Shown: positions 3,311 to 64,000 of the stretch, piece after piece
Layout of the letters: each line of letters begins with the position of its first letter
Position numbering within the stretch: the stretch's first letter is position 1
Assembly: GCA_019400425.1 (NCBI GenBank)
Contig: JAFREE010000117.1
Span: 1-64,000, forward strand
DNA length: 64,000 nt
Origin: Hymenochaete sp. R1
Lineage: Eukaryota > Basidiomycota > Agaricomycetes > Hymenochaetales > Hymenochaetaceae
Direction: 5' to 3'
The notes under the pieces: model-generated
Seen by the model: only the letters and a program-made list of their open reading frames with translations
Databases searched by the model: none
Told to the model about the DNA's origin: nothing
Position numbers and translations under genes: made by a program

Positions 3311-5016
3311 CTAGTTAAGAGGCTGCGGAGTCAAGGTAATCGATAGAAGAGCCTTTAAATCCCTCCATTCATCCTCATGAGGCCACTCGACAGATGCCTT
3401 CTCACAAAGGCTCATCAAGGTGACGAACTTTATTTCGTACTCTTTCTGATCCTTCCTGAAGCGGGGAAGGATCTCCCCTTTGATCCTTTTTTTCGTGAGT
3501 TGGAAATTGTACCACTTGAGATGCGCTGGAGCCCAAAGGCGGAAATGATACAATTCCCATCGCAATACTTCCTTCGATGTCGCTATACAAGCAGGGGGTT
3601 CGTCGTCATAGATGCTCGGGTAATCGAGAGAGACGTCTCTTAGCGACGTCGCTTTCAATCGAGCTTTGACTGCAAGTCTTCTGGCGGAGCGATCTCGGGC
3701 TGAATCAGCATCCAGTATTGCCGTCTTCGCTCCCTCATGAATGTTCAACAGTGACATATTGAGGGGGGACACGACCGGAGTTTGTCCCGTAATTATTCGA
3801 AGTATTTGATACTTCTCTTGTTCCCATTTGTTGTCGACATAAGCTTCGAAGTATTCCCTGCGTTTAGGTTCGTTTTCAGACACGGGGATAGCGAGATATC
3901 TCTGATTATTTACACAATTGTAAAGTTCGTTTACGTTGGATTCGAACTCGGCAAATAGTGTAGTGACTTGTTCGTTGGACGGAGCCAGACCTGGAAGAAG
4001 TTCTGGTTCTGGCACCCGTATCTCTGTCTCTATAGCATATACTCAATGAGCTTGAATCAGGCAAAACTAAATTTTGGCACGTACGTAGCAGCAAGGTCCT
4101 CTCGACCGGTCGTTGTCGATGCAACTGGTGCGAAGAAGATACCGTATAAGTATGCTAGGCGAATAGAAAAGAGAGTCACCATACTTTCATTGCCAAAAGT
4201 CCCTCCAACTCTGTCCATTTAGTGGCGCTGGACCAATGTTCTCCATCCTTGTAAAGCTCCTTAAGCCTTAAGTACCGAGACTCGTATTTCTTCTGTTCTT
4301 TGGCAAAATGCTTCCAACAATCAGGATTGTCTTTCTCCAGGGCCATGCGGTGCCACCACAGCAAGGCTGAAGGGGCTATTGTGCTGAAGCAATAGACCTC
4401 CCACTTCGCCACGGCATTGTTCTCCGACATTTGTCTGTTGAAATCGGAGTCGTAGATGCTCGGCGAGCTTGTTAGGGTGGTCTCACCAGCTTCCGTATGT
4501 TGCTTGCCCAAGTAAGTCACTTGCGAGCCCAAATTATCTCGGGCTGTGATGACTTGCTCCAGGACCCTCTTCAGCCCAGCGTGTTCTACCTTTGCTATAT
4601 CGATTATCGCTTGTTCCGAAGGGTCGAAACCTAGAATGGCCTTGAGCAAAGCAAGAGACTCCTTCTGCGCGTCGTACTTGACAAGCTTCTCGTTGTAGAG
4701 GTCGAAGAATATTGTCTTTTTCTCTGAGGGTATAGCATAAAGCCTCTGTTTGATTACTCCCGGGACGAGGTCCTTCACCTTGATTCGGAATTCCTCAAAC
4801 TTCTGACCGATTCCTGATGCGTCAGACTGGTGGGAAGGAACTATCAAAGAAGTATGACCAGGTGCATCCGGCTCCGAGGGCTTCCTCAATTTGTTGCTGC
4901 CACCTAATGCATCACCCATGAACGTCAAATATCATGTGCGCCGCGAACATCAACAAAACCATACCTGAGGAATCGCTTGGCCCAGCATTGGAGTCCAGTC
5001 GACGTTTCTGGGACAT
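3311..5016 (-). CDS. Unrecognised tandem-domain family protein, copy A
   Basis: I do not recognise this family. The first exon (5016-4965) encodes MSQKRRLDSNAGPSDSSG, a short basic leader. Intron 4964-4904 joins it to GSNKLRKPSEPD and a first domain (to about 4187) that ends in SPSIYDSDF, then AKWEVYCFSTIAPSALLWW. After one or two short introns, a second copy of the domain starts near PEPELLPGLAPSNEQV (about 4015). It contains YPSIYDDEPP, KEVLRWELYHFRLWAPAHLKW and the closing EWPHEDEWRDLKALL. Both domains share the pattern of an LY/LV-x-x-V helix, Y(Y/F)EA-(L/Y)VD-K, an ILG/ITG turn, then P-S-I-Y and the W-E-x-Y box. There is no signal peptide or membrane segment. Charged, helix-rich composition suggests a soluble nuclear or cytosolic protein. 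The region between the domains (4020-4190) is the least certain part of the model. Confidence 0.7.
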
Positions 5017-5444
5017 GATACTTCGTGGGTAAAGGAGAATGGCTAATTGAAGTCCACAAGTATGTGTTTCGTGCTTCGATAATTATACACCATACGTCCT
5101 TTGCCATAGACTTAAAGCAAAGAGCAGACATTGCTAGCGATCGGGTAGTAAAATTTCCGCTCGCACTTGCAATGAAGCTTTGCATCTATCCTAGCACGAA
5201 TCAAGAAGGTGCAAACAACCCAAGGGGGAACCACCCAAGTTTGAAAGCTCGCACTCTCGGAACCGTGGTCAGTTTGATGCATCCCGATCCGATGGTCGAG
5301 ACCATGGAATTTCTGACCAGGCTGAGATCGAGTAGCTTGAATTATTACGCAGAAACTATGATAGGTGGGATAAGGCGATTCGAATGTCAAACATACAGAT
5401 GGACTCAAAGGAGTTATTGTACGAAGACGTCGCACCTTGCCCTA
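5017..5444. other. Intergenic, promoter of copy A
   Basis: This gap lies between the start of copy A and the 3' end of the dehydratase gene, both on the minus strand. Reading frames in it are short and resemble nothing I know. Confidence 0.5.
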
Positions 5445-16870: not shown

Positions 16871-18026
16871 GAGATGCCCAGGTGAAAGGAACGATGCTGT
16901 AACTTTTTCTTGTAAACTGTACGGAGGTGCTTGATAGGTAGGCATGTGAAAAGAGAAAAAGAAAAGTGTATTAGTTAGCGCTTGAAATATGCGAATGTAG
17001 TTGTTGGTCGTGCATTCGTTGGGACCGAAGCTTCGAGAACGACGAACTTCTACTTGAACTCTGCTCATCAGGAGAAGCTTCGGATATTAGAGGAGGCTTG
17101 GTCCATGTCGCACAAGGCGGCAAGTGCACGCAAGTTGCTCTCGTTGGGTATTGTGGATGGCTACCATTACCAAGTTCGATTCTGTTGCGCAGGTTTCTTG
17201 ACGAACCTCGATCAAAAGTTGCTCGCCACGTTTGATACGCTTGCAAAATAGGGTACCGGAAAGGCTCACAGGTGGGTCGTCGTCGAGGAAGATGATTTAC
17301 GGAGAAACACATCTTCTGACATAGATACAAAAATACACAAAATGACGACGAGAAGTTGTAGTCGTAGCAGCACCCTATTGTCTTACTATCGATTCAATGT
17401 AAGTGTGTATCCGAACAAAAATAACAGATCTAGAGTCAGCACCGTTGTTGCACTTTGGCGATGGCCAATGTCCGATATTTGTCCTTGTTTGTTGCCACAC
17501 TCCGCCGGCCGGCCATTCCGTTTGCGTCCTCTTTGGCTGTGTTCCGTCGTGCTCCTTGACTCCGTCGTCGTCCACAGCACCGAGCGGTCTTCACGCGTTC
17601 ATCTCGCTCTCATCTCGCGTGTATCTCCGACCAGAAGTCAACAAGTCAGTCAAGATGATGGAGTCGACAAGAGCCAGGTGAAAGCCTCGTGTGGGCCTTG
17701 CAACACCACCAACGACACGTAAATTGCAAATGCAACGCGGTCAACACGCGTTCCGGGCCATGGCACTGGCGCACCCCTTCGACTCCTTGTTTCGGCGTGT
17801 TTCGCGAACGCACGCCCCGGATGCAAAATTGCTGGCAACTCTGCTTGCTCCCGAGTAGATAAACACTCATCAAAGAGGATTCTCTAGCGCCCTCTTGCTC
17901 GTGTGCCATTCATCTACCATCCTTCAAATTGCCTGCAATCGTCTTGACGACATCCCATCCTACTTTCCCATTCTCTCCATCATCGGCGCTCACCTGCCAT
18001 TGTAATCTAACTTATCTTAACGAGCA
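16871..18026. other. Intergenic between cyclophilin and the long Ser-rich gene
   Basis: Contains the cyclophilin 3' region and the promoter of the next gene. Several 60-130-codon frames overlap on both strands, and none resembles a known protein. Confidence 0.5.
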
Positions 18027-21000
18027 ATGAGCTCAAACTCTGTATCCTTTTCTCAAACTTCGCGCGGTGTGAATGACGGTCGAGACGAAGAGGGTCTCCT
18101 CCCGCAGTATGGGTTTGGCAAGACATACACCTTCGACACGCTCGTCTCACAGCATCGCTTCCTCTACCGTGTACACACGCCCAAGCGGCGTACTGGAACA
18201 GGCTCTCAACAGTCCCGGGCGACCTCACCACAGCCTGCCACGCGAGCAGCTTCCCCTTTCTCCACCCCAGCTCGTACTCCGGGGTTAACTCGTGCAAGGT
18301 CACCTTCCGCTTCTTTGTCTTCATCGGTCTCGTCTATTCGGTCAGGCAGGGAGGGCTCCGATTACTTTGGCTTGTTCACAAGCGCACCAGAGGGCATCGA
18401 CTTCGACCCTCGGTCGAAGGATGACGATGAAGAGGATGGGGCTCCGGGGGATCCGTATTTCCTCTCAAGACGTTTCAAAGACGATCTATCGTCTCCGGAT
18501 GCTCATCGCCGTCGACGGACCTTGAGTACGCTCAGTACTCTCAGTGCAGGTTCATCGTATATCGGCAGCGAGTATGGCGAGAACGAGCTGGAGTTTGGGA
18601 GGCAACTGCAAGATAATGGAAGGCCTGGATTCTCTAGGAGCGCTACTACCAGCGTAGGTCCTGGCCGGTCAAGGAAAGAGTCGTTGACTGGTCGACCTGG
18701 TAGCCGTCGCTCTCAATCGGTCGACCTAGGTATCCATCCCTCTTCCCAGACCGCCAACGTGGACCCCCAAAATCCGGATTCAGATCCGAGCATGACATAT
18801 GAAGACCTCGTGCGACATCTCGATTGGACGACACGCTCCTCATCGCCTTATGTCACAACCTCATTTTCGTTTTTCTGGTGCCTCTGGGAGGCAATTCGGC
18901 GTTACAAGATTGGTGTGAAACACGATGTTGAGATTGCCGTCATTGATGCTCGGAGCGTCATTGGACGGGCAAGGACGGCTCTTGAAGTCCTTAGGGGCGT
19001 TGACGGTGGAAAGTGAGTGTTTATTTCTGAGAGTACCGTCGTGACTGCGATTTGCTGACTGTTGGCAACGTTTTAGGCAGGACAAAGCGTATTGGAAATG
19101 GTACCGCTTCGCTCTCGAGTCGCAGGACGTTCTTGTGTTCGGTGCGATACCTGGCGAAGCAATCTACGCATCTGTCCCTCTCACGCAAATACTACCCCGG
19201 CTTCCTTCTTATTTCTTTGTACCCGAGCCTCAAATGAATCTACCGGCGCCTCAAGCCGACCCCCGCGAACCTCTAGGCACTGCATCGACGGAGTCCGAAG
19301 ACCCTCGCTCACCTACATCTCGTACTCCAAGCACTTCGCAGCTGGTTTTCTTTCCAACTACCCCTGGCAAATCATCTTTGCCCGCTACCCCGGGGAGAGG
19401 CTTTACTCCTCGTTCGGACCTATCGTCAAGTTTTGACTTGGGCAGCGATGAGGGCGAAGAGAGGAAACGAACAGCTCTATTACTTTCAAAGCTTTCCTGG
19501 GATGTCGGAAACAGCCTCAAGCCCCGTCGCAAACAATCAGTATCCAGTCCAGGAAAATCAGCTTCCACTTCTCGGCATACATCCCACTCCGACTTTTGCA
19601 AGGCCATCACGCGAGCATTCGAAGGCCACGACTCCACTAAGCCGGGCGAAATCAGGAAAGATGAAGAGAAACTCCGTGACGCAACTTCAGGCGCTGTGCG
19701 TCTTGCCGAAGTGCTCATCGAACCTTGGTTCCGAGCGCGCTGTGCAGAAGCTGCCGACCCTTTCCGATTCGACCTCTCAGACGACGAATCGGACGAGGAG
19801 AAAGAAGGCGAGTCGGAGGGTCTGTGTCTTGGTCTGGCTGGAGATGGATGCGCCCTCGAACATCGTCACGGTGAGGAAAAAGCCGAGTCCGACGGGGAGA
19901 CGGAGGATCCGCGTATGGAAGCTGCTGAGACACTCGCGGCGCTTTCGCTCGAGCTAGCGAGGTGGCCTGCAACGTGGTGGTTCAAGGAGCGCCGAGCGGG
20001 AATAGAATCTTTGGTCAAGGATATTGTGGGCATGTGCGTAAGGGAATGTGCTCGGGGAGTGGGGATGCGTGTGTGGTGGGGTGTACAGAGCGAGTATGAG
20101 AATCAGAGGCGAAGAAGCAGAGCAGCGAGTGAGGTTGGGAGTCCTGGCGCGAGGTCAGGCGTCTTTGGTGGTTGGGATGATGCAAACGCGAGGAATGGAC
20201 GAAGGAGGACGGAAAGTCTCGGGATGGGTCTTGGGAGTGGTAGGGAACTATTCAGGGAGAAAGACAGCGATGAAGCGAGGGGACGTCAGGAGGGAAGGTC
20301 GAGATCGAGGTCTCCTTTCGCAGATCGCAGACTTGCTCTTGCTCGCCGTGCGAGTGAGGGTTCACCATCGCCTTCCACATCACGAACGTATCCGTCTCCA
20401 GCATCGTTGCGCGATTCTCCCTATAAACCTCGTGCGCGCTCTCCACTTGGTGCTGTTCCGGCCCTTGGACCGGCTTTCAGACTCAAGTCTGATAGTCGCG
20501 ACCCTCAAGCCAACGATGTGGAGACCGGAGAGGGCGAGCTAGAATGGGCACCTTCGACACCTCCCCCAACTCCGCCGTTATCAGCTTCGCAACCCCTGAC
20601 ACTCGACGAATCGAGTCCGAACATGAGCTGGCGCAGTAGTACGCTCACGACATCGAGTACCAGTACAAAGGTAGACGACATACCTTCGGAAACTCCGAGC
20701 AAGCAGAAGCGAGCTGCCCCGCCACCTCCACCCCCAAGGTCATCGAAAAGAGAGAGGGAGCTTGTTGTGCATCGATCCGCTTCGTTCGCGAGTCTCGACT
20801 CGTCCATTGAATCTATGCGTACATCCCAGAGCTTTTCAAGGGATGAAACGAGCAAGGATGGGGATATGGATGTACCGGGAGGGTGGCCGGCTTCAGAGGA
20901 GGATACAAGCAAGGATGGAGGCGATAATCTATTAGGACCCCCATTCCAGCCCTCGGGTAATGTCCCTACATCTCAAGTTCCGCATACACCTCCGCCAAAG

Positions 21001-25223: not shown

Positions 25224-26102
25224 CCATGCACTTATATAAAGTATTTCAAAGCTATAAATACCCGGATAGAAGCTGATATCCGTCCTTTGCCCGGGTCCGA
25301 TGATACGGCCTGCACGTTGGCCAAATTCGATTTCGTTAAATTTGGAGTATCGATGTCGAAGGTGATGGATAGAGTTAGAGACGCGATTGATGATGGTGTG
25401 CTTGTCATGTACTTATCGGAGTCTTTCTCGCTCTTTGACAATAGAGGTCGAGCAGGCAGTTTAGTGTTGCACTATTAAATTAATGCACCTATGCAACCAG
25501 TCGAATGGTTGGGCATGCATCGCTTGTAGCTTCCTAAGATGTTTGTCAAGTGAGTCGCAATGAAAGCCGCGACTTACATCAACTCTTCTCTGCGAACGGT
25601 CCCACCCGGGCCGACCAAGGCCGGGATGGACTTGAGTTCTCTTGGCTAAGTTCTATCCATCCGTTCTTTTGCTTTAGCTTGCTTGAGATTGAACCAGACC
25701 GACATTACCGCATACTCCATAACAGAGCCGGGCTGATACAAGGCCGAAATGTGCTTCGGCTCGATTTGATGAAGACACACATTCAACCTTCAAGTTGACC
25801 TTTTAGTCTTGCCTTAATGCTTGTTGTACAGTTCGACAAATGCGTCCAAGCTGTTGCATCAATGGCCAGCTTACAACCACTGTAAGCAATGTCTTTACAT
25901 TGCCTATCGAAAAGAACATTATCGGGCAGACTGTCTGGCTGAAACTTTGCAGGCGCACAAGTGGCAAAGTGGAAGAGAAACTGTAATTTGCAAGGTGCCT
26001 TCTTCTCTCTCGTTTCCTCCGCCTTCAAATATTTTTGTCTTTAAGTTTTAATCCCGTTTCACCAGGCTGATTCCACTCCGCCATTGTCTTTCAAAACGTG
26101 TC
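25224..26102. other. Intergenic between divergent genes
   Basis: Shared promoter region of the phosphatase (minus) and family copy B (plus). No recognisable gene is present. Confidence 0.5.
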
Positions 26103-27057
26103 ATGTCTTATCAGAAACGTCGCTTGGAAGGGGATGCCGAATCAGGTACGCACATTATAAGCTAACAATGCGATATGTAGCTGACTCTGTATTATGACTC
26201 TAAGCAGGAAGAGACAACCCTTACTCAAAGGAAGCCTCGGGTAAGATTTTGTATGGCCTCTCGACGACCCTCTCTGATCAAGTTCGAATGCAGCTGATAT
26301 CGGTCAAAGGATGGCCATTTTCTACAGTAATGTGGATGACCTGGTGGAAGATGTAGTAAAGCAAAGGTTCACTGTCATAACATCACGTCCCGAAGAACTA
26401 CAACCCACCAAGAAAGCATACTACGAAGCGCTCCTCAAGCATGCGACACAATATGAATCTGTCGAGGTGCTCAAAGCTATTATAAAGCTTAGCTCTCCAC
26501 CCAAGTCAAGTCGCCACAAGCCGTCGACGGAGCTTGAAGAGGCAAAAGAGTTCTTACAGACGATCACCGCCTCCAGAGACGCCTTGGCAAAAGAAGTTAA
26601 TAGTCTCAAATCGAAAGCCAAGAAGGAAGGGGGGCAAGTGCTAGATGAATCACCTAGCATCTACGTCGACAATCCTGACCCAGCGTTGACGGACCCAAAA
26701 AGCAAAGTGATGGAGTGGGAGCTATATTGCTTTTCGATAATCGCTCTTGCAGCTTTGAGGCATAGATATGAAGCTGTCCTAGATGCCTCGGAGCATATGC
26801 GAACGCATGTCTGGGTCAAGTTTAAAGACGAAAGAAAGAACTATGCTCCTGTGTACGACAAGCTTAAGAATTTGCAAGCGAAGAATGGAGCAGAGCTACC
26901 GGATGAGGATGACTGGAAGGCTCTTTCGACCATTTTTACAGTCGAGGTGTGTTGATACTCTGATTCGCATGTCAACTCAAATGTTACGGGCGTAACTGAC
27001 CTTCCTTTCATTGCTGTCCTTAGCATGAGGGATCAGCCAAACTTCCTCCTCTTCCAT
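26103..27057 (+). repeat. Duplicated block shared with copy C (B side)
   Basis: Exons 1-4 and their introns match 30900-31853 closely; the exon 3 proteins differ at about 17 of 214 positions. Exon 2 is the exception and has diverged. Similarity ends at the donor of the next intron and is absent upstream of the ATG. Confidence 0.8.
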
Positions 27058-27856
27058 GTACGTCAAACGTTAAATGATTTCCGTTGTTCAACGTGATTCA
27101 TTTGCTTATGACGCCTATATAGCGTTGCTCCCGAATTCCGCCAAGAGAGTAAGACGAAATGCTCCGGCTGAGAGCTCAGTCGATCTCTCCATCTATCCAG
27201 GCCCATCTCCGAACGACAAGCAGGTCACAAGTCTCTTTTCCGAATTTGAGGGAAAGAGGGACAGGCTCTATCATACTGTGCAAGAGAAACGGCTGCAAAT
27301 CCTTCTCCCAGACGATCAAGGTCGTGTCCGATACGAAGATTATTACAGAGCTTTAGTCGACGAGAAGGGCATGCAAGAGATTGTTCATCTGATTCGAGTC
27401 ATTTTAGGCCGTTCACCCAGAGACTTTATGGGCATCGATAAACATATGGAGAGTCACCCCGCAGATAAAGCACTTCGGAATGCACACACTGAGCTCGGAC
27501 GCATTAGGAGCACTGTCTCCTATATGGGAAAATATGTCGGGGAAGCAATAGCAAAGGAATTCCCAAGTGTCTATGATACCGATGCCCCCGCCTCCTTGAC
27601 CCGATGCAAAGAAGTTCTGCAATGGGAGCTATACTGCTTTCACCTCTGCGTACCTGCGGATCTGAAGTGGCGTAACAAGTTAGCATCCATCGGGGACGAA
27701 AGATACAACGCCTCGCATAAATTTAAAGAACAGCTGCAAATGCATCGCGGTCATTTCCACAGGCTGAAGTCCCTTTGCGAGGCTGCTGGTGTCGAATGGC
27801 CAGCTGAGGAAGAGTGGAAGGACCTGGAGAATTTGTTTTTGATTGCAGCTTCGTAA
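26103..27856 (+). CDS. Unrecognised tandem-domain family protein, copy B
   Basis: Five exons: 26103-26145 (MSYQKRRLEGDAES), 26208-26240, 26294-26946, 27024-27057 and 27123-27856. All junctions keep frame and give about 500 residues. Domain 1 runs from ADIGQRMAIFYSNVDDLVED to DDWKALSTIFTVE and includes ESPSIYVDNPDP and VMEWELYCFSIIALAALRHR. A mini-exon (HEGSAKLPPLP) links it to domain 2, which starts SLLPNSAKRVRRNAP. Domain 2 contains LFSEFEGKRDRLYHTVQEKR, YYRALVDEKGMQE, VILGRSPRDF, FPSVYDTDAP and KEVLQWELYCFHLCVPADLK, and closes with EWPAEEEWKDLENLF. No known fold or catalytic motif is recognised, and there is no leader or membrane segment. Domain 1 is nearly identical to that of copy C, but domain 2 is not. 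Confidence 0.8.
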
Positions 27857-35832: not shown

Positions 35833-37079
35833 TCAAGCATCCTTTGCATCAACAACGTCAATGCTCTGCCCACTGAGATGCACAATCTTCCCCGACTCTT
35901 CCACCGTCAAAGTATCAAGCAACGCGAGCTGTTCAGTCACGCTCTGTTCGACGCTGATGGCACCGCGGAACTCCGGGTTTGTTTTACGAAGCCATCTTTC
36001 GATGGAAGTTTGCATCGCTTTCACGACCTCTGGAGCTGGAAATGGACACAATCAGAAAGACAAGTCAAAACAGCAATCGAAAGAGAGGGCTGGGCTGGGA
36101 CTTACGTGCTTGACGCGTCATAACCAATCCAGGAGAAATAGCCATGAACGCTATCTTCTCACCTTCACCTCCGTTTTCCCTCCCTTTCCCTTCCCAATCG
36201 TTCTCAACCCCACCCTCGTCCTTTCCATGCCAACGAAGCCTCTCGGCAACAGCAAACTTGGTCAAAACCATATTGAGAGCCGCTTTCGAGATGGCATAGG
36301 GCACAACATTGTGACTTCCTGTACCGAGGGTGAATTGCGGTGACCCCATAGCAGTCGTGACAACTAAAACTCGTCTTGGGTAAGTCAGGTCTTTTGGTGA
36401 GGGGGCGCGGAGGAGGGGTAAGAAGGCGTTGATGGTGTGGGTTACTCCGATGACATTTGTTTGGAACTAAGAGAGTAAGAGTCAGTTGTCTTTCAGTCCT
36501 AGGGTTGAAGACACTGGGAAAGAGAAAGGAATGAAGTACTCACGTAAGTAAGCATGTCTTTTTCAAGAATCTCTTCATCCGGGCTACACAGATACGAGTC
36601 GCAAGTCAACAATATCGCTTACGCGGAATCAGAAGCACAATCTGACATACAACGCAGTAATACCCAACTCGAAGCGCTCCGTACCCATCAAAGCAGCGTT
36701 GTTGATAAGAATGTCAATTGAACCTCCGTTTAGCTTTGACACGGTCTCGGCTGCAGCCTATTATAGAGTAATGAGCTTTCTCGATTACTTCCGGTCAACT
36801 CAGCAAGGACGAACTTTGATTGATTTGTGGTCCGTGAGATCCATCCGAACGATATGCACCGTCTCTGACTTTGCGAGTTCTTGCAGCTCGGAGGAACCGG
36901 CAGGGTTCCTTACGAGAGCAAACACTACGTTGCGGGGGTCACCGCTTAGTTTGCGCACCCAACCAATCTAAATGATGAAAAGGATACGATCAAATACTAT
37001 TAGTTGCGAACAAAGCTGTAGAAGGGCAAGCACTCACTCCGATTCCACGAGAGGCGCCAATAATAACATAAGAGGGCAT
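35833..37079 (-). CDS. Short-chain dehydrogenase/reductase, array copy 1
   Basis: NAD(P)-dependent Rossmann-fold SDR of about 260-280 residues; the substrate is unknown. The ATG (37079) opens MPSYVIIGASRGIG, the cofactor-binding Gly motif. An intron then leads to IGWVRKLSGDPRNVVFALVR and the acidic position in VRMDLTDHKSIK. The NNA-like strand reads DILINNAA, followed by FQTNVIGVTHTINAFLPLLR, VLVVTTAMGSP (catalytic Ser region) and PYAISKAALNM (YxxxK catalytic pair). AISPGLV and a final exon ending SGQSIDVVDAKDA complete it. In copy 1 the position before the catalytic MG is Ala-Met (TTAMGS), where array copies 2 and 3 have Ser-Met; copy 4 also has Ala. This is the first of a tandem array with the same exon layout. 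Confidence 0.85.
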
Positions 37080-38664: not shown

Positions 38665-39954
38665 CTACTCAGCAACAGTGCCAAGGGGCTCCCCGTTAAG
38701 ATTCACGATCTTTCCCGAGTCCTGCAAGGTTAGTCCTTCAAGCAACGCAAGCTGTCCATTCACACTTTGCTCCACACTAATGGCACCACCAAAGTTCGGG
38801 CTGGTCTTGCGGATCCCTGCTACAATTTTGGCCTCCATGGTTTTCACAACCTCCGGAGCTGCAACGAGAGGTCATGCATCGTAAGATGGTTTTATGTAAG
38901 ACGAAAGGTAATTAAAAGACGAAGTGTAAGTATGAGGGTCTTTGGATAAGAAATATTGAATACTGAAACTTACGCGCTTGCATAGTCATGACCAACCCAG
39001 GCGAAACACCCATGAACGCCACCCTCTCACCGTCGTCTAGACTTCCCTTCCCTTCCCTTTCCCAATCACCATCATCCTTCTTTCCGATTTCGCCGCGCAG
39101 TTTCTCCGAAACAGCAAACTTGGTCAGAACCATATTCACAGCGGCTTTCGATATCGAATACGGAATGACGTTGCGGCTTCCCATGCGGAGGGCGTACTGC
39201 GTTGAGCCCATCCCGCTTGTGACAACTAGAACGCGCTTTAAAATTCCAGGCGAAGTGATGGAAGGGGTATGAAGGAGGGGAAGAAAGGCGTTGATGGTGT
39301 GCGTGACACCGATGACGTTCGTTTGGAACTGATAATATGAACGAGAAGCAGCAGTTTTAGGAACGGTTAGTTGCTGCAACATCTTGCATTGTTAATGAAA
39401 GTACTAACGTATGCCTTCATGTCATTCTCAAGGGTTTCTGCATCAGGACTGTGCAAGTATAAGCGGTTTATGTTGAAGAAATAGACGCTGCACAGTAATT
39501 GAACGTACAATTCAGAAATACCCAACTCGAAACGTGTCGCTTCCATCTTGGCACCATTGCAAATGAGAAAGTCTATGGACCCTCCGCTCAATCTTGACAC
39601 CGTTTCGGCTGCAGTCTAGAATCGTGAATGTAATAGTGACGGTGAGTAACTGGGTTCGACCAGACAGACTAAATAGAATATTAATGAGGACTAACCTTGA
39701 TAGACTTGTGATCGTCGAGATCCATCTGGACAGCATGGACCTTCTCTGACTTTGCGAGCTCTTGCAGCTCAGAAGAGCCTGCGGGGTTCCGCACAAGAGC
39801 GAACACCAGGTCATTAGGATTACTGCTCAACTTGCGTACCCAGCCGATCTGGGCAACGAGAGCGGCATGGTCAGATATCAATGCGTAGGAACTGAAAAGG
39901 TTATTTGCTCACTCCAATTCCGCGAGAAGCACCAACAACAACATAGGAAGGCAT
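38665..39954 (-). CDS. Short-chain dehydrogenase/reductase, array copy 2
   Basis: The paralogue closest to copy 1. The start MPSYVVVGASRGIG (ATG 39954) is followed by IGWVRKLSSNPNDLVFALVR, QMDLDDHKSIK and ETVSRLSGGSIDFLICNGAK, where the usual NNA is NGA. FQTNVIGVTHTINAFLPLL, VLVVTSGMGSTQYALRMGSR, the catalytic PYSISKAAVNMVLTK and MGVSPGLVMTMQA come next. The last exon ends DSGKIVNLNGEPLGTVAE. Exon borders lie at the same protein positions as in copies 1, 3 and 4. Both catalytic Tyr and Lys are kept and no stop interrupts the model. The substrate cannot be inferred. Confidence 0.85.
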
Positions 39955-41086
39955 TGTTAGGTTTGAAAATGACTTTTTCTGTGATTTCGAGGCTTGCTGA
40001 GAGGTAAAATTGCACGTTTCTTGTGCTTCATACGAATAATAGCACTCTTTTTATATAGGTTTGAGAGGTTCTCAAAGCTGTTCTCATGTTTTCCGGCGCT
40101 CATTCAAAATCACGTCTGTTGAGGCGCAAGCCGGTGCCGAAGGGTGACGGTTACTCTCGGCATGAGCAACGCAAATTTTACCGCGACGCATCCAAGTCAG
40201 CTTCAAGTTCGGCACGTCAGCGCAATTACTCAACCGGGTCAAATTGTAACGATGATAGGAATCATCTCCGACTTCCGTCCTGTCGTCATAGGGTAGGTCG
40301 GATTCTAATACGCAAAGTTTATAATCCAGTGCAAGTCAGACCAAAGGAGTGAGAGTTAGGCGGTTCGATGCCTGCAGCGGATTTCAGCGGATGGGGCTCC
40401 ACACAAATCCGAACCGCGAATCGGCTAACTAGCCCCTGTTCCAGACATCATTTTTCAAAGAGCTGTGAAGCAGGAAAAAAACAACAGTTTATAGTGCTGG
40501 AGTAGATGATGAAGTGAGCTCGGGTTCTGGGGATGTATGTAGAAGGCACAGAAGCGATCATCCTTACCTCAAAAAGAAAAGATACCAGACCGACCGAGTT
40601 GCTGATTGGCATTGTGTAACTCCAAGCAAATGACTACATGCTAATAAATATTAATGTACTAGTACTGTTTGACCGTCTTACAACTTGTGCAAGTCAGCGA
40701 CAAATTGGCTTCAGTACGTGGGCACAATCACTCATTCCGATTAAACTCTTGGGTCTCGTTTTTTGTCCAAATGTGAGACGTATTTTATTATTGGTTAAGG
40801 TCGGCTATGCTCAGGCTGCAGCAGCTGCAGCAGGTGTTATTTTAAAAAGAGAACACGACTAGCGTAGATTTGCAAGCACGATAGCCTTACCGGCGATTGG
40901 GAATCGTAGTGTAATTCTGCAGGAGCGCGCTAAAGGCCTCTACACGCAAGTGGTACAGCTCTCTGACACTTCGTTACAGAATGCGGTTATTGCAGGAATT
41001 TTGCATGTGTTATATCTTCGGTTCCTTAGAAATCATGTCAATGTGTATTAATTGATAATTCATGTTGGGCCGTTACAAATGATCAC
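39955..41086. other. Intergenic between SDR copies 2 and 3
   Basis: No supported gene. Frames are short and AT-rich, with nothing recognisable. Confidence 0.55.
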
Positions 41087-42287
41087 TTATGGCACTATGC
41101 TGTCAACGACGTCGATGCTTTCTCCATTGCAATGAACCAATTTGCCCGATTCTTCCAACGTCAATCTCTCAAGCAGAACGAATTGCTCATCCACGCTCTG
41201 CTCAACACTGAGAGCGCCTCGGAAGTTTGGGCTGACCTTGCGCGTATTCGCAATAATAGTTGCGTACGTCGATTCTACGATATCAGGGGCTGTGATGGAA
41301 GCAAAAGCGTGTAAACATATTACTAGTGCTTAGTTATAGTAAATGTGTTGCTTACAAGCCTGTAAAGTTTTCACCAGTCCTGGAGAGACGGCCATGAATG
41401 CCACTTTGTCGCCCTGCAAGTCGTTCTCCGATCGTTTTTGTTCAGTGAGAGCGAATTTGGTTACGGCCATATTCAAAGCAGCTTTTGATATTGAATATGC
41501 ACATCCTCTATCGTGAAAGGCGCCTCTCGCGTAGCCAGGAGAGCCCATTGAGCTCGTCACAACGAGGACGCGTTTTATAATATCAGAAGATGCGTTTGGC
41601 GATGGTGTACGAAGAAGAGGAAGGAAGTTGTTGACGGTGTGCACGACACCGACAACATTAGTTTGAAACTATGAATCAAAGCAAGATTGAGTGAGTGGAA
41701 GGAAGAGATCTCGAATGCAAACGGAGAAACGCTCAGTACATAGGCATGCAAGTCTTTTTGCAGAGTATCTCCATCTGGGCTGCGAAAAAAAAGGTTTATA
41801 AAGTTAAGGACGCCATTCGATGCGACTTGAATGAAACGCACAAGTCAGTTAAAGTCAGCATGGTCCGTTCATGGCGCATCATAGCTCCATTGACAATAAG
41901 CACGTCTATCGATCCTCCGCTAAGCTTTGAAATCGTCTCTGCTGCAGCCTGTAGTGAATAAAGTGAGAATCTTTGATTTCACCTTTTGTCTTCTGTAGAT
42001 ACAGAGACTTCAACGTACTTGAATTGATCTCAAGTCGTCGAGGTCCATCTGAATGATGTGCACAGCTGTGGATTGCTGCTGTGGCTTCGTATTTACGTAT
42101 TCTCGTAGCTCAGCAGACGAGGTAGGATTGCGCACGAGCGCGAATACTAGGTTTTGAGGATCAGAGCCCAGTTTCCGCACCCACCCTAGCTAAAATAATG
42201 ACTTCAGCTAAAGGACGATGCATAAAAGGGAAGAGGACAGCGTACCCCGAGACCACGGGACGCCCCAACAACGACGTAGGTTGGCAT
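41087..42287 (-). CDS. Short-chain dehydrogenase/reductase, array copy 3
   Basis: ATG 42287 opens MPTYVVVGASRGLG, then LGWVRKLGSDPQNLVFALVR and HIIQMDLDDLRSIQ. The strand SGGSIDVLIVNGAM follows, then FQTNVVGVVHTVNNFLPLLR, VLVVTSSMGSPGYARGAFHD and the catalytic AYSISKAALNMAVTKFAL. AVSPGLVKTLQA and a C-terminal exon with VSPNFRGALSVEQSVDEQ and SGKLVHCNGESIDVVD complete it; the TAA is at 41087-41089. It is shorter than copies 1 and 2 in the loop after the catalytic helix, like copy 4. Intact as far as can be seen. Confidence 0.85.
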
Positions 42288-42921
42288 TTTGAAGGCAATC
42301 CAACGAATCAAAGTATGAGACCGAAGAATGACAATTATGGGCCAACGGCTGCCTCTGGGAAAGTGCCAGTGGGACGTATAATGGAGAGGTTCTTAAATAA
42401 CGGACCAGATATTCCCCACCAGACCCGGCCACCGACGACTTGACATCATGCCGAGCGATGACGATATACTTCCGAGTCGGCATCTCGAAAGAAAAATTCC
42501 GGTGAAAAACGGTAGACTGCATACGAGGTTCTGAGACGCTCAAGCTTTTCAGTACACCCGTCCAAATAATAGTTCGCGGCTGACACATGAAGGCCCGATT
42601 TGACTCGGGATTGGTTCGTAAAATGTATCTCGTCAGTGCATGACTATGGATCACCAGCCAGATATCACCATGCATGTCAGCTCTTGCAGCAGTGTTTGTA
42701 ACTTGTCAATAAGGCTGCAAACACAAAGGGAAATCAGGTATGACTATCGTTTGGGGGTTTGAAATAGCGGACCGGCTGTCGTGTCGCTGTCGGCTTAACT
42801 GCTCTAGATGGGTCGGTCTAAGTGGACAAAACGTCGCACTATCTGAGAATGAAGATGGTTTAGCTAATTAACTTTGTATGATTCGACACTTCCGCGATAT
42901 TCAGACTCACAAAATCTTGCA

Positions 42922-43315
42922 TTAATCATGATCCTTCTCCTTCCACTCACATACGGCAACTTTCCTGAATTCGGAAAGACGTCCAGTTGCAGCCTGAAAT
43001 GAGAACCAGGCTCTTTGTCGCAAACGTTGGCGAGAAAGGGTGCCTTGATAGACTTCGCCTGGATCCAGATCCAATTGAAGGGTATGCATGATGTACGCTT
43101 TCTTATCTGTTCCCGACTTCACACAATTTTGTAGATCGCGCTAGCGAGGTCTCTGACGAGTGAGAATACCAGATGTTGCGAGTCACTACTTAATTTACGA
43201 ACCCATCCCAGCTAAGGTCGTGTAGATGATGAAGTCAGCTGAAGTCTCAAACAACAACGTTATCATAACTCACCCCGAGACCTCGAGAAGCGCTCGCAAG
43301 AATGCGGGAAAGCAT
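42922..43315 (-). pseudogene. SDR relic in the tandem array
   Basis: Only the 5' end of an array SDR remains. The ATG at 43315 gives MLSRILASASRGLG, in which the first Gly of the GASRGIG cofactor motif is Ser. After a normal intron the sequence reads LGWVRKLSSDSQHLVFSLVR, is soon interrupted by stops and frame changes, and fades near a degenerate version of the MDLDD segment (LQLDLDPGEVYQG). No catalytic Ser, Tyr or Lys region is present before copy 4 begins. Confidence 0.75.
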
Positions 43316-43563
43316 TGACTATCCTCAAGGGCACCTGATTAAAAGCACTGGGTTGAATGCAGAGTGAGGCGGTCACTCTACGTATCCATCCACCGGCACG
43401 AGTACAATCGCTGAATTGATTACTGACTATCAGACAGATCAATGTCTCGTTGTTCGTGAAGGTTTAAAATGAACGCAATATATCGCACGCGGAGCATTGC
43501 TACAGCTGTAGATATAATCATCGCACCTCAATTATAAGAAGAACATGATCAATGGCCTTTTCA

Positions 43564-44729
43564 TTACTCTGTGCCTTCTTCCATGACGTCAATGCTCTGC
43601 CCGCTCGAATGCAACAGCTTCCCCGAATCTTTCAGCGTTAGATTCTCGAGGAGCCCCAGTTGCTCAGATACGCTCTCCTCGACGCTAATTGCACCCCTGA
43701 AGTTTGGACTCTTCTTACGAATGTGGGAGGTGAAGTCTGCATAATACGCCTCTGCAACTTCAGGTGCTAAAGAGAAGAAATGCACGTTCATTGTTTGCAC
43801 CAAAAATGAGTTCATCAGAAATGCAAACTCACGCCCTGCCATCGTCTTCACGAGTCCTGGAGACACGCCCAAGAAAACAATCTTATTTGCACTTGCTTCA
43901 CTCGATCTGCGTTCCTTCTCCGCAAGCGCAAACTTGGTCACAGCCATGTTCAATGCTGCTTTCGAAATCGAGTATGCAGGTGCGTTGTAGCTACCCCCGG
44001 CTGTAGCGAAAGCTGGAGAGCCCATCGCGCTAGTTACGACTAGGATGCGTTTGAGTGGGGCAAGCGAAGGAGAACGAAGAAGAGGCAGAAAGGCGTTGAT
44101 GGTGTGAGTTACACCAATAACATTGGTCTTGAACTATAAATAAGTGTAAATAATTAGTATCCCACCGGACAATTCCTGTAAAAAATGATGAATAAGAATT
44201 ACTGACATATGCCAGCAAATCTTTTTCAAGTGTTTCTGCGTTCGGACTACGAAAAACGATAGTCGGAAGCATCCTTTGCATTAGAGAAAGTCCAAACTTA
44301 CTATTCGGACAAAGTCAGTTCGGTCCGTTCGTTTGAAACCATCGCGCCATTGATAATGAGCACATCTACCGATCCATTGCTCAAGTTCGCGACTCGTTCA
44401 ACTGCAACCTGCCGTAGACAGTATCATGCACGGCACAACTTGCTGCCAGTAGTGACTAAAAATCAAACCTTGATTGACTTGAAGTCGGTAAGGTCCATCT
44501 GAACGATATGAATGTTCCCATGCTCGCTCGACTTGACAAACTCTTGTAGGTCGAAGGATCCAGCAGGATTCCGAACCAACGCAGCCACTAGGTTTTCAGG
44601 TCGGGAGCTCAGTTGTCGTACAAAGCCTAACTAAAGGAGTGGGAGGCAATCAATGTCTATTCGTAACGAGAAGAAGCAGCTACTTACCCCGATCCCACGA
44701 GAGGCACCAACAATGACATACGAGGGCAT
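43564..44729 (-). CDS. Short-chain dehydrogenase/reductase, array copy 4
   Basis: ATG 44729 opens MPSYVIVGASRGIG, then LGFVRQLSSRPENLVAALVR, HIVQMDLTDFKSIK, NGSVDVLIINGAMVSNERTE and SPNAETLEKDLLAY. FKTNVIGVTHTINAFLPLLR, ILVVTSAMGSPAFATAGGS and the catalytic AYSISKAALNMAVTKFALAE follow. FLGVSPGLVKTMAG precedes the last exon, which carries PNFRGAISVEESVSEQ and ends SGQSIDVMEEGTE. The exon layout is the same as in the other copies, and the YxxxK pair is intact. It is separated from the next gene (BTN1) by a short non-coding gap. Confidence 0.85.
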
Positions 44730-45114
44730 TCTAGAAATGATAATGTGCCTCAGGGCTCAAGACGGCAGTCGTTAATGGCTAGATTCGGAGTCATATCGCA
44801 AATTTCTTTTATAGACAATGACTTTTTTAAAAAAAGCCGTGCTTGCCAATACATGCAAACTTAGTCATCCACGTAGAAGTGTCCCATCCTTTTGTGAACA
44901 TCCGAACTCCGAGTTAGCACCTAAAGTTGATGAAGGCGAATTCAGGCCGCAGAGACAGAGACAGAATGCATTATCATTAGCATCTTTGACTCATTATGAT
45001 TACGCACCGGATTATACCATCAAATAAAATACACATGAACAAAACGAGAGAAATTGCACGAAAATAAAAAAGATAAGTGGTATACCTCTATCGAAAATCC
45101 TCAATCACCCTCTT
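44730..45114. other. Intergenic between SDR copy 4 and BTN1
   Basis: A-rich non-coding sequence with no supported feature. Confidence 0.6.
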
Positions 45115-51066: not shown

Positions 51067-51384
51067 ATGTCGAAGCGCAAGGATAAAACCGGGCAATCTT
51101 CAAGAGTATCGAGTAAGTGAATGTAGTGCATCTCACTGATTTGTATTCACCGGCGCTCCATAGGTTCTGGTTCTGGCGTCAAGCGCGCGCGCTCTTCAAC
51201 ATCCTCGATCAGAACTGTTGAGTCGTGGTACATGGTCGATTCTGAGGACCTTCCGTGTCAAGATTTCACCAAGAAGAGCTCTTCTTCAAATATGATGTTT
51301 TCCCCCTTAAGTCTGACATTCCTCTTTCCAAGTTACTTTATTGCTGAGTTTGCTACAATCTTTCCATGTCATTATCAATATTGA
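51067..51384 (+). pseudogene. Family relic H (N-terminal fragment)
   Basis: Exon 1 (51067-51112) encodes MSKRKDKTGQSSRVS. Intron 51113-51163 joins it to SGSGVKRARSSTSSIRTVES and WYMVDSEDLP, clearly matching the starts of copies D, E and F. After that point (about residue 52) similarity stops. The frame runs on through unrelated Ser/Phe-rich residues to a TGA at 51382-51384. The whole core domain is missing, so this is a truncated duplicate at the head of the tandem D-E-F group. It could still be transcribed, because start codon and splice sites are intact. Confidence 0.8.
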
Positions 51385-51920: not shown

Positions 51921-52781
51921 ATGCCGAAACGCAAGGTCGAGGATGAACACGGTTCTGAGCCGAGAGGGTCGGGTGAGTATCATATTATTCAACATGTCCA
52001 TAACTTACACCCCACAGCTTCCGGCTACGACGACAAACGCCCTCGCAGTGCGCCACCCAGAAACAGGTCCACTAAGTCCTGGTACATGTGCAAACCTGAG
52101 GACCTTCCTGTGCCAGAGGAAGTCAATGCTGGTTTCGAGATCTACAAACGTAACAGAGATTCTTTGGCTCCTGCTGTGAAGACAGAGAAGATGAGTCAAG
52201 TTTCCGATGACGATGAAGCCTTGAATGCACACATTGCACTTTATCACTCCGCTGCCCTGGATCTCGAAATATACGATCGGCAGGTGTCAGAACTGCATTG
52301 CATCCTTGGCCTTGTACCGGATGGAGCCTCTGACGACGCCGTGAGCAATCTCGCCGACAGTGAAGGTAAGGCAGAACTAGAAAGGATTCGCAGGGAGGTT
52401 TCGAGGAGGAATATAACACGCAGTGTTCAAGTTGCTCAGCGCAAACTCAAGGACAGATATGAAATGGTCCCAGAGCCACTTCCTAGCGTATTCGCCCCCG
52501 GGTACCCTGTCACCAAACAATATCTTGACTGGGAGTACTATCACATCATTCTCATCGCGCCCCCACTACTCGAGTGGAGAAAAAGCCTGATCTCCAAGAC
52601 ACGAAGTCGAAAATCTCGAGAAAATTTCAGCGATGAGCAACAGGTCTTTCACGAAAGATTTAATACTCTCCAGGCGCTCTACGCTAGTATTGGCATACCC
52701 GTCCCCGAGGACGTGCCAAATGCCACTAAGAAACTGCACGACCTTTTTACTTACCGGTTCGAGGGTGACAAAGAGGAGTAG
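51921..52781 (+). CDS. Unrecognised family protein, single-domain copy D
   Basis: Exon 1 encodes MPKRKVEDEHGSEPRGSG. The 45-nt intron 51973-52017 (gtgagt...ccccacag) leads to ASGYDDKRPRSAPPRNRSTK and SWYMCKPEDLPVPEEVNAG. The core has LAPAVKTEKMSQVSDDDEA, YHSAALDLEIYDRQVSELHC, ILGLVPDGASDDAVSNLADS, PLPSVFAPGYPVTKQYLDW and EYYHIILIAPPLLEWRKS. It closes with LHDLFTYRFEGDKEE. About 270 residues hold one domain only. The K-x-Y-L-D-W-E-Y-Y box corresponds to K-x-V-L-x-W-E-x-Y in copies A-C and G. The leader contains a KRK cluster suited to nuclear import. The intron is a multiple of three without a stop, so retention would add 15 residues in frame. Confidence 0.82.
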   Translation: MPKRKVEDEHGSEPRGSGEYHIIQHVHNLHPTASGYDDKRPRSAPPRNRSTKSWYMCKPEDLPVPEEVNAGFEIYKRNRDSLAPAVKTEKMSQVSDDDEALNAHIALYHSAALDLEIYDRQVSELHCILGLVPDGASDDAVSNLADSEGKAELERIRREVSRRNITRSVQVAQRKLKDRYEMVPEPLPSVFAPGYPVTKQYLDWEYYHIILIAPPLLEWRKSLISKTRSRKSRENFSDEQQVFHERFNTLQALYASIGIPVPEDVPNATKKLHDLFTYRFEGDKEE

Positions 52782-53602: not shown

Positions 53603-54464
53603 ATGTCGAAGCGGAAAGATGAAAAGGAGCACGATTCGAGGGGTTCCGGTAAGTAAAATGTCGCGTCAAGCATCATATGACTAACATTTAATAGGCCCTG
53701 GTTCCAGCTCCAAGCGCATCGACTCTTCAGTCTCCAGGAGCAGAACTGTTGAGTCGTGGTACATCTGTGCACCAAGTGACCTTCCGGGCGCAGAAGCAAT
53801 TGGCGCTGCGTTCAGAATTTATAAAAGGAACAGAGAACTGGATGCCGTCGTGAAAGCGGAGAAGCTTGAATATGTCTCTGATGACGACAAAGAACTGGAA
53901 GCCCTGTTTAAAACCTACCATTCAGCTTCTTTGGACCATGAAATGCATATTCGGCAAGGCAGAGAGCTTCACTGTATTTTGGGCCTCACGCCAGATGGGG
54001 CGTCTGACGACGCTGTGGAAAATCTTGTCGACAGCGAAGCGAGAACAGAGCTGCAAAGATTCCGCCGGGAAAAGAAGAGGGTCAAATTGTATCATCAGAG
54101 AGAAGATGCCTCGACTAAGCTCGAATTCTGGCACAGAGTAATCCCTCATCCACTTCCCAGCGTTCTCGAACCTGGGTACCCAGTCACTAAAGACCATCTC
54201 GATTGGGAGTACTACTACACAATCCTCACCGCGCCTTCTATTCTAGAATGGAGGATAAATGTGGCAAACAAGAAGCAAAGCACTGACTGTAGCCGTAAAT
54301 TTTACGGAGACCAGAAGACCTTCCGCGATACTTACAAGACTCTCCAAGCGCTGTACGCAAGCAACCATCTGTCGATCCCAAAAGACTTGCCAGAGGCAGT
54401 CAAGAAATTGGAGGACCTCTTTGCTTATAGGTTTGCAGCTGATCGGGAAGAGGAGGAAGATTAG
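53603..54464 (+). CDS. Unrecognised family protein, single-domain copy E
   Basis: Exon 1 (53603-53648) encodes MSKRKDEKEHDSRGS. Intron 53649-53694 (46 nt) joins it to GPGSSSKRIDSSVSRSRTVE and SWYICAPSDLPGAEAIGAAF. The domain contains VKAEKLEYVSDDDKELEAL, YHSASLDHEMHIRQGRELHC, ILGLTPDGASDDAVENLVDS, PLPSVLEPGYPVTKDHLDW, EYYYTILTAPSILEWRIN and LEDLFAYRFAADREEEED. It is a close paralogue of D and F with the same intron position. Differences include a shorter LAPAVK segment (ELDAVVKAEK). A soluble, acidic-tailed protein is predicted. No function is known to me. Confidence 0.83.
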
Positions 54465-55523: not shown

Positions 55524-56410
55524 ATGGCGGACTTGAAACGTAAAGACGACACAGAGCACCAGATCTCGAGGGGATCTAGAGGATCGAGTAAGTCACACAT
55601 TTGTTTATAGCTCTCTTGACTTACTCTATTCAAGATAGTAGTACTGGAAGCAAGCGTATCCGTTCATTGGCCGCCACAGGTAGAACGAACAGATCTTACT
55701 ACATGGTCGACCCCGAGAATCTTCCGGGAACACAGGCCGTCGGCGCTGCTTACAAGGTTTATGAGAAGATAAGAGATATTTTGGCTCCCGCAGTGAAGGC
55801 GGAGAAGCTCAAGAATGTTTCTGACGTTGACAACGTCCTGGACGAACTTCTCACATCATATCATACCGTCACTTTGGACATCGAGATCTACGACAGGCTC
55901 GTCAAAGAGCTCCATTGTATCCTGGGTCTCACACCTGATAGGGCCTCTGACGACGCTGTGAAGTCATTGGGTGACAGCGAGGCAAAGACGGAACTGGAGA
56001 GGATTCGTCGTGAGAACCCGAAGAGGCAGTTGCTGCACAAGAAAGGCGTCGATAAAAAGACGCTTAAGGAAAAACATGCCGTAGAACCCTCCCCACTTCC
56101 CAACATTTTCGAGCCCAGCTATCATGCCACCAAAGAGTATCTCGATTGGGAGTACTATCATATCCTTCTCATCGCAGCCCCAATTCTCGAGTGGAGGAAG
56201 GCCACGGCGCTCACGAAGCGCGATAGCAAAATGTGGAAGAAGTTTCACGACGACCGGGGAGCTTTCTCTGACAAGGTCAAAAATCTCAGGACACTCTACG
56301 CCAGCAATGACTTGCCGGTCCCCAAGGACTTGCCAGACATCGTCGCGAAAATGGACGACCTGTTCGCGTACAACTTTAATGACACGGTTGAAGAGAGCTC
56401 GGCGGCTTGA
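55524..56410 (+). CDS. Unrecognised family protein, single-domain copy F
   Basis: Exon 1 (55524-55587) encodes MADLKRKDDTEHQISRGSRG with a KRK cluster. Intron 55588-55634 (47 nt) gives SNSSTGSKRIRSLAATGRTN and SYYMVDPENLPGTQAVGAAY. The domain then reads ILAPAVKAEKLKNVSDVDNV, YHTVTLDIEIYDRLVKELHC, ILGLTPDRASDDAVKSLGDS, PLPNIFEPSYHATKEYLDW, EYYHILLIAAPILEWRKA and MDDLFAYNFNDTVEESSAA. The conserved Ser of PxPS-[VI] is Asn here. It is the third functional-looking gene of the direct tandem after D and E, with spacers of 0.8-1.1 kb. Confidence 0.83.
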
Positions 56411-62549: not shown

Positions 62550-63027
62550 AAGTTCTGGGCTCGGATGGGCAGATGGGCAATTGCGCCTGTTCGTTAAACT
62601 TCGTTTTATGGGGTCGAATCATACATGTGCGCTGGTTTTGCGGTTTCCCTTGGTGAGTAGCGATTTTGGTAAGAGGGTCAGTGCATTTATTGATGATAAC
62701 TATGATAACCTTCTTAGCTCTCCTTCGCCTCCTCTTACGAAGGCCCCGTCGGGAGAAGGACGATCCGCCGCAGTCACATCGACAAAATTCCTTTTTCGTA
62801 TGAAGCTCATTTAGTAGGAAGGTGATTGCGTCTTGTTTACATCTACTGCGATGCAGAATTGAAAAAAAAGGTATATTTGTAGGTGACTATGAGGACAGTA
62901 TCGACAGAGAACTGTCAATTTGGAGATGGACCACACGACTATTGACTTACGACTGGCCTGCCAGTTTAAGGTAAGTAGGATAAGTTCATGTACGCAGCGC
63001 GACCTAGGATAGTGTACCTTAGGTACT
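62550..63027. other. Convergent 3' intergenic region
   Basis: 3' regions of YAE1 and of family copy G. No gene is seen. Confidence 0.6.
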
Positions 63028-64000
63028 TCACTTGGGAGAAGTATCAATCACAAACAGTGCCTCCAAGACCGTCCTCTCCCTTTCAGTAAGCCAATCGAGA
63101 CCAGCAGTTTCGCAAAAACCTTTCAATGCGGCATATTGACTGTGATATTTGTCCTGTTCCTTCTGGAACTCGGGCCAAACCGCCTTTTTATAACCCAAGT
63201 TGTACTTTTTATTACGCCATTTCAGTCGTGCCGGCACCCAGAGACGGAAATAGTATAATTCCCATTGTAACACCTCTTTGGATTGTGTCAAAGCGGCGGG
63301 AGGGTCGATGTCATAGATACTCGGAACACCCTTCAAATTCTCGCCTCTGACGGTCGATCTTCGGTATGTGAGCGTCTTGGAGCTGCTATTACGGTTAGAA
63401 TACGCATTCTCAAACGCCGACTCTGCACGCTCGACCTCCGTCTTCTCCTCAGACAATTTAACATCGCCGGGTTTACGACCTGAGACGACTCGTATTATGT
63501 CGAGCTTTTCTTGGTTGCAGTGATTGTTAACCAAGTGTTCATAGTACACGCAACAGGGCAACCGGGGTTCTTCGTCGGAGACGAGACATTATAGCCGCTT
63601 TTCCCTAACGATATCGTGAAAGTCTTTCAGATTTTTCTCATATTCAGCAAGGAGCGCCGTGATGTGTTCCGTGTCAAGACGTGGACCCGGGTAAAGAGAG
63701 AACCCAGCGGTGTTAGGAAGTTGATGGTGATGATAACTCGTTTCCTGCTGGTCAGCCCTAGCTCTTCTGTTCGATTGCTCTTCGTGGGTTTCGTTCCCTG
63801 TGCGAGTTTTAAATATCCGGCGAACTGGTGCGAAAGGGACTTCAAACTTACGTGGGAGGGAAGAAGGATTGACCGACATCTCGCGCTATGGATGGCATTG
63901 AAGAGGAAAAAGGAAGCATCGTGTAAGTACCACTGACACGCTCATTGAATAGTCAATCGGAGCAAGGCTTAGACACACCTGAATAGCAAAAAGGTCCTTT
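63028..64000 (-). pseudogene. Family copy G, cut by window edge, in-frame stop
   Basis: The C-terminal part of a two-domain family member reads leftward from the window edge. At the edge an exon ends KDLFAIQ, matching the end of domain 1 in B and C. A linker exon follows (REMSVNPSSLP, in the place of HEGSAKLPPLP), and after a further intron domain 2 starts. Domain 2 runs LYPGPRLDTEHITALLAEYE, DFHDIVREKRL, then a TAA (63589-63591). The same frame continues CLVSDEEPRLPCCVYYEHLV and on through VPSIYDIDPPAALTQSKEVL, QWELYYFRLWVPARLKWRN and LDWLTERERTVLEALF. The rest of the domain is well kept, so the stop is recent, or a sequencing error. Domain 1 lies beyond position 64000. Confidence 0.75.

Follow-up and report, generated by a model that had tools for sequence, protein, structure and literature searches.

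Many expanded genes in fungal genomes lack any database explanation. The first 64,000 bases (hereafter the window) of a contig from Hymenochaete sp. R1 (JAFREE010000117.1, referred to as C21; 78,325 bases, in a genome of 27.8 Mb and 336 contigs) raise this question in a particular form. They hold seven gene loci and one short relic of a single helical-domain family; two of the tandem-domain genes, B and C, and a third, I, lying beyond the window, are closely similar over the first domain and divergent over the second. What this family is, and how such half-alike genes arose, is addressed below. From the sequences analysed, the pattern appears best explained by partial gene conversion, which would homogenise one part of some copies on the same contig, the remainder staying divergent.

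Gene copies and gene structure

In tblastn searches of the window with ten domain exons, each copy was connected to others, the matches of the relic being confined to D, E and F (2e-5 to 2e-4). The copies in the window, with three related genes outside it, are as follows:

Gene A: 5016-3311, minus strand; tandem-domain, 509 residues, intact, four exons (5016-4965, 4903-4185, 4124-4085, 4029-3311)
Gene B: 26103-27856, plus strand; tandem-domain, 498 residues, intact, five exons (26103-26145, 26208-26240, 26294-26946, 27024-27057, 27123-27856)
Gene C: 30900-32670, plus strand; tandem-domain, 506 residues, intact, five exons
Relic: 51067-51258, plus strand; exon 1 and the beginning of exon 2 of the single-domain type, with no likeness beyond
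Gene D: 51921-52781, plus strand; single-domain, 271 residues, two exons
Gene E: 53603-54464, plus strand; single-domain, 271 residues, two exons
Gene F: 55524-56410, plus strand; single-domain, 279 residues, two exons
Gene G: 63028-64000 in the window (3' part), the complete copy at about 64809-63028 of the contig, minus strand; tandem-domain, broken
Gene I: C21 67578-65816, minus strand; tandem-domain, beyond the window
Gene J: C21 69995-70869, plus strand; beyond the window
Gene K: contig C294, start at C294:97892 (worked out by hand); tandem-domain

An earlier note on this DNA had counted eight copies, among them relics; tblastn and the gene models confirmed this count as seven loci and the relic, with G as a broken copy. 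Each of the two domain exons of gene G contains one stop, for which a genuine break and an assembly error are both possible. All six intact genes of the window have GT..AG introns and open spliced models. The model of A was built by hand and those of B, C, D, E, F, I, J and K by enumeration of open models, which left six alternatives each for B, C and I, four for K, three for J, two each for E and F, and one for D.

The tandem genes share a plan consisting of a basic first exon, a domain-1 exon, a micro-exon of 34-40 bases and a domain-2 exon, to which B, C and I add an exon of 33 bases. A single phase-1 intron, following the basic exon, interrupts the single-domain genes. The intron phases are 1,0,1 in A and, by the same reckoning, in K; 1,1,0,1 in B, C and I; and 1 in D, E and F. 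Intron phases are thus shared among the genes, and the basic first exon described in the note is upheld. The proposed signature (P-S-[IV]-[YF] followed by K-x-x-[LMV]-x-W-E-x-Y) exists in a looser form than stated: an alignment of 16 domains gave P-x-[IVT]-[YFLN] and later W-E-x-Y-x(9)-L inside one long helix, with Y75, P155, W171, E172, Y174, L184 and L217 (numbering of D) invariant.

Genome-wide distribution

Family members were sought by ten single-protein searches of the genome, and the locus counts are lower bounds. We found at least 29 gene loci and two fragmentary ones, in three groups. The alpha group comprises A-G, I and J on C21 (nine genes), K on C294, and the relic. The beta group has four loci, two each on C296 and C310, with fragments on C168, where two neighbouring short open frames (194263-194929) resemble beta proteins and are probably a broken or intron-split copy. 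The gamma group has 15 loci, of which four lie on C101, four on C285, two on C287, two on C68 and one each on C56, C38 and C29; the match at C285:68960-69670 contains two stops and may be broken or spliced. The final four queries (two gamma, one alpha and one beta) yielded no further locus. The family is thus expanded, as the note had proposed, but not merely locally: besides the nine genes of C21 and K on C294, it has kin on ten other contigs.

Profile comparison linked alpha with beta (99.3%, E value 3.4e-20, 209 columns) and alpha with gamma (98.3%, E 1.6e-14, 198 columns); the direct comparison of gamma with beta was weak (59.9%, E 8.7e-5). Twelve decoys, made by reversing profiles or shuffling their columns, gave E values of 0.048-0.84. 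Chance as the source of the family likeness was rejected by the tblastn matches and these decoys. At the level of sequence, the three groups are shown to be homologous, and intron phases are common among members. In an unrooted tree of 34 rows (16 alpha domains, four beta and 14 of the 15 gamma), the gamma, beta, single-domain, first-domain and second-domain rows each fell to one side of a branch (bootstrap values of 98-100), which is consistent with a single origin of the tandem form.

Mosaic structure of B, C and I

The similarity among B, C and I is confined to a block. By blastn, B 26102-27063 and C 30899-31859 are 91% identical, from the base preceding the start codon to slightly beyond the micro-exon; B 26067-27063 and I 67614-66612 are 85% identical, from 35 bases 5' of the start codon, the likeness dropping within intron 3 and exon 4; and the block common to C and I is 87% identical. 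Outside the block, the second domains of these genes align in short stretches alone (70-74%). The identities of the individual pieces are given below for B-C, B-I and C-I, in that order, and can be read against random 60-mers, which average 0.56 (highest of 50, 0.77):

Exon 1: 0.91, 0.91, 0.93
Intron 1: 0.92, 0.85, 0.79
Exon 2: 0.66, 0.69, 0.94
Intron 2: 0.94, 0.91, 0.96
Domain-1 exon: 0.93, 0.89, 0.91
Intron 3: 0.86, 0.67, 0.66
Micro-exon: 0.97, 0.76, 0.76
Intron 4: 0.61, 0.69, 0.55
Domain-2 exon: 0.64, 0.66, 0.64

Synonymous divergence (dS) in domain 1 was 0.21 (B-C), 0.27 (B-I) and 0.19 (C-I), and in domain 2 it was 2.39, 1.48 and 2.07, respectively; the proteins are 85-92% identical in their first domains and 37-42% in their second. 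What the earlier note took for recent duplicates, B, C and I, are thus young in their first-domain block and not beyond it; the second domains are divergent, and gene conversion accounts for the difference.

Partners also switch inside the block. C groups with I in exon 2 and with B in intron 3 and the micro-exon. Within B-coordinates 26210-26722, C sided with I at 42 of the 59 sites informative for B-C versus C-I, and outside them it sided with B at 70 of 77. This switch was matched by none of 300 permutations, as was that between C-I and B-I sites (0/300); the one between B-C and B-I sites was not significant (28/300). The switching marks the three genes as mosaics in which one exchange or more followed the first copying. 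A, G and K also carry two domains, and the tree keeps each domain type together; hence the second domains of B, C and I most likely predate the overwriting of the first ones by ectopic gene conversion.

Blocks of excess codon identity in other pairs

Eleven further pairs were scanned for excess codon identity among codons for the same amino acid, and such blocks were found in three of them, on C68, C296 and C287 (each 0/200 permutations); these three had been spotted by eye before the scan, and their tests are post hoc. The C68 pair consists of gamma loci L064 (781-1750) and L067 (776-1747), 20 kb apart, with 106 of 112 codons identical over the N-terminal residues 4-124 versus 53 of 104 outside. 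The corresponding blastn block spans 973 bases at 90% identity, made up of about 149 codons and some 520 bases 5' of the open frame, and protein identity beyond the best codon block is 43% (106/245). In the C296 pair, 46 of 50 codons were identical over residues 231-292 versus 57 of 121 outside, and in the C287 pair 34 of 43 over residues 305-355 versus 54 of 138. The D/J pair had a weak block (6/200 permutations), and no excess codon-identity block was found in the remaining seven pairs.

Selection and a second strain

The pairwise ratio of non-synonymous to synonymous divergence (dN/dS) was 0.16-0.34 for the three first-domain pairs of B, C and I. For the second domains it was 0.21-0.38 in the eight of ten pairs with finite, near-saturated dS, two pairs lying beyond estimate. 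The family domains thus appear to be under constraint, the second-domain values resting on near-saturated dS. Positive selection across whole domains was rejected on pairwise values well under 1, and the positive selection envisaged in the earlier note found no backing where dS was usable, the estimates being pairwise rather than site-wise.

A search with the alpha alignment of a collection of 5.8 billion proteins returned four proteins. One was the window's own C domain 2 (204/204 residues), and three were JGI proteins from 6,003-base contigs, representing a second (metagenome) strain. The latter are near copies (98-99%) of D (279/286), E (202/204) and F (264/269) and, because all three contigs measure 6,003 bases, they probably come from one contig. 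The second strain thus seems to retain the D/E/F trio little changed, which weighs against extreme polymorphism of D, E and F; the comparison covers these three genes in one strain, the tandem genes being outside it.

No relatives were found with the gamma alignment among 7,997 scored candidates of the same collection, nor with a control, the neighbouring Yae1 exon, among 492 candidates. The collection seems to hold hardly any of this fungus's kin. Since the control also found none, we do not read the small number of relatives as restriction to a clade. An eight-residue gamma pattern picked up one stretch in viral_contigs and 16 in genome_contigs, collections that are not fungal, and none of these was a relative.

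Library and fold searches

The Pfam-A scans covered 25 distinct members or exons (nine alpha exons, two beta and 14 gamma members); C domain 1, G domain 1, I, J, K, two beta members and one gamma member stood outside them. None of the nine alpha exons reached a curated cut-off (best E 0.017), nor did two beta and two gamma members; among the 14 gamma members no match fell under E 0.01, the best (0.011, THOC7) occurring in one member. PDB sequences gave no significant match (best E 0.96 for alpha and 0.51 for gamma). The weak match of B domain 1 (residues 46-81) to AFUB_07903_YDR124W_hel (PF11001), a helical-bundle family by name, had an E value of 0.035 over 36 residues in one of nine proteins. 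Membership in this YDR124W-like family was rejected, as its 14.6 bits lie under the gathering score of 31.3.

AlphaFold gave confident six-helix models for D (predicted local distance difference test, pLDDT, 87.6; predicted template modelling score, pTM, 0.83) and B domain 1 (pLDDT 90.3, pTM 0.87), with the long helices in the same order and helix 3 split in D. The W-E-x-Y-x(9)-L motif sits in one long helix of the D model (residues 166-194). The single- and tandem-domain forms were predicted in the earlier note to share a fold, and the common helix layout agrees with this, both models having been built from the same 16 sequences. The fold search yielded no significant solved structure for either model, and no viral model for D. 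The best Foldseek E values were 0.35 and 0.74, neither for a ferritin, at 4-13% identity; the matches of the family to ferritin-like and other helical bundles in the PDB are within the level reached by unrelated helical bundles.

The domain accordingly remains unrecognised, as first described, with no significant Pfam-A, PDB-sequence or PDB-fold match among the members tested. Among the papers listed, no title or abstract dealt with the family, a sequence-based literature search not being possible. Its novelty rests on Pfam, the PDB and the literature, and uncharacterised homologues are likely in other fungi. The family offers a usable profile and a fold model that is confident yet has no clear match among solved structures.

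Possible function and alternative explanations

A basic pair occurs within the first 18 residues in all nine intact alpha genes versus 13 of 50 control open reading frames of the window. In the distant groups, 13 of 14 gamma and three of four beta frames have such a pair no more than 18 residues from a methionine, the methionine being freely chosen and paralogues not being independent. Many members have a second KR cluster about 12-25 residues further on, an arrangement that resembles a nuclear localisation signal (NLS). The members form a fungal superfamily of predicted six-helix proteins; most of them begin with a brief basic stretch of this NLS-like kind, followed by one or two helical domains. 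Because no enzyme match was obtained and no leader was seen by eye, we tentatively favour nuclear, non-enzymatic binding or adaptor proteins, shaped by partial gene conversion, though with rather less than even confidence. Such proteins would enter the nucleus. Where two domains are present, the homogenised first one would bind a partner shared by the tandem proteins, and specificity would differ from protein to protein through the divergent second one.

Several observations weigh against this proposal. The NLS-like reading draws on basic residues; exon 2 of B, C and I has no second basic cluster, the next one standing at the start of domain 2; and the helical domains are nearly neutral (net charge -7 to +7), a range on which DNA binding by charge was rejected. 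Exon 2 of B (0.66-0.69) and intron 3 of I (0.66-0.67) deviate within the exchanged block. The constant/variable split is clear in B, C and I but in no other tandem gene: A, G and K lack it, with first domains 37-51% and second domains 37-48% alike. The exchanged part is N-terminal in the C68 pair and C-terminal in the C296 and C287 pairs, and a fixed constant half is therefore no rule. Gene conversion may also follow simply from proximity, without function.

It is quite possible that the members are instead lineage-specific nuclear regulators or chromatin cofactors of an ordinary kind. Birth and death would then have expanded them, gene conversion in the clusters would be incidental, and recognition would play no part. 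The low dN/dS, the basic start in all three groups, the stability of D, E and F in the second strain and the single copies on C29, C38 and C56 would all fit. However, for a plain cofactor 29 or more divergent copies are many in a genome of 27.8 Mb, and the Pfam-A scans brought up no DNA-binding or chromatin domain in the members they covered.

Allorecognition or nuclear compatibility, in which variable second domains would tell self from non-self after hyphal fusion, as with hnwd of Podospora, is unlikely. The clustering of paralogues, the relic and the broken copy, and the exchange of sequence that homogenises one part and leaves another divergent, are as expected of such determinants. Nevertheless, pairwise dN/dS is well under 1, the second strain differs by seven of 286 residues in D, two of 204 in E and five of 269 in F, and none of the 25 members or exons scanned matched HET, NACHT or WD repeats. 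On this evidence, the allorecognition, defence or effector role suggested in the earlier note was not borne out.

An origin as mobile-element genes, or as genes domesticated from one, is very unlikely. The family is dispersed and multicopy, with a relic, but its introns are retained in phase and the likeness of the 150-base flanks of B, C and I, 61-66%, stays inside the range of random pieces (mean 0.56, highest 0.77), except for the 35 bases before the start codon common to B and I. No mobile-element family was found in the Pfam-scanned members, terminal repeats not having been searched systematically; one match, to the Ydc2 resolvase, had an E value of 0.061, under its cut-off. Secreted or host-directed effectors are, if anything, still harder to credit: expansion, clustering and the relic would suit them, but dN/dS is low and all nine intact alpha genes begin charged and hydrophilic, without a hydrophobic leader, and with no N-terminal signal peptide seen (both judged by inspection). 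Selection holding the first domain of B, C and I constant without gene conversion accords with the first-domain dN/dS but scarcely deserves belief, since it predicts introns 1 and 2 as divergent as the second-domain exon, and these introns and the synonymous sites proved to be alike too, with informative sites switching partner along the block.

If the favoured nuclear adaptors were recognition factors, they would open a way to study how this fungus manages compatibility or genome defence; otherwise the family is a good model of gene conversion shaping paralogues. It provides in any case a clean natural case of partial conversion, with exchanged and unexchanged parts comparable inside the same genes.

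Neighbouring features

A velvet-factor frame, which marks the DNA as fungal, lies at about 12-14 kb of the window (PF11754, E 2.4e-42); the richness in introns and their shortness point to a basidiomycete. There is also a DUF7587 frame (E 1.8e-10), followed by a long serine- and proline-rich frame, at 18021-19016. A second local expansion occupies 35847-44730, with pieces of several short-chain-dehydrogenase-like copies at 65-85% DNA identity and a common NVIGVTHTINAFLPLL stretch; one frame matched adh_short weakly (E 8e-4, under cut-off). A 51-base stretch (38298-38348) matches its own reverse complement at 94%. F-box/leucine-rich-repeat-like frames flank the cluster (window 1390-3256 and C21 71236-73424, both on the minus strand); one of them, at 2804-3256, matches the F-box (E 2.9e-4), and the other flanking frames were judged by eye.

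Comparison with known systems

The boldest extension of the nuclear adaptor proposal is a previously undescribed repertoire system, in which ectopic gene conversion would keep one half of nuclear helical proteins common while the other half diverges, giving many specificities on a shared platform. We consider this quite improbable; if true, the repertoire could serve, for example, compatibility between nuclei or action against genomic parasites. The closest known parallel is the hnwd/NWD family of Podospora anserina, a fungal NOD-like receptor (NLR) multigene family of allorecognition which is reported to have inter-locus exchange, concerted evolution of one part and pseudogenes (PMC1805685). 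Exchange of the hnwd type was found among the members described here (the B/C/I mosaics and the C68, C296 and C287 pairs), and the two families have in common their multigene nature, exchange between loci, one protein part evolving in concert and broken copies. The difference lies in what is exchanged. In hnwd, the exchanged WD repeats bear the polymorphic recognition surface, with positively selected residues (PMC1805685), whereas in B, C and I the exchanged block is the uniform part, with low dN/dS, and the members scanned gave no HET, NACHT or WD match.

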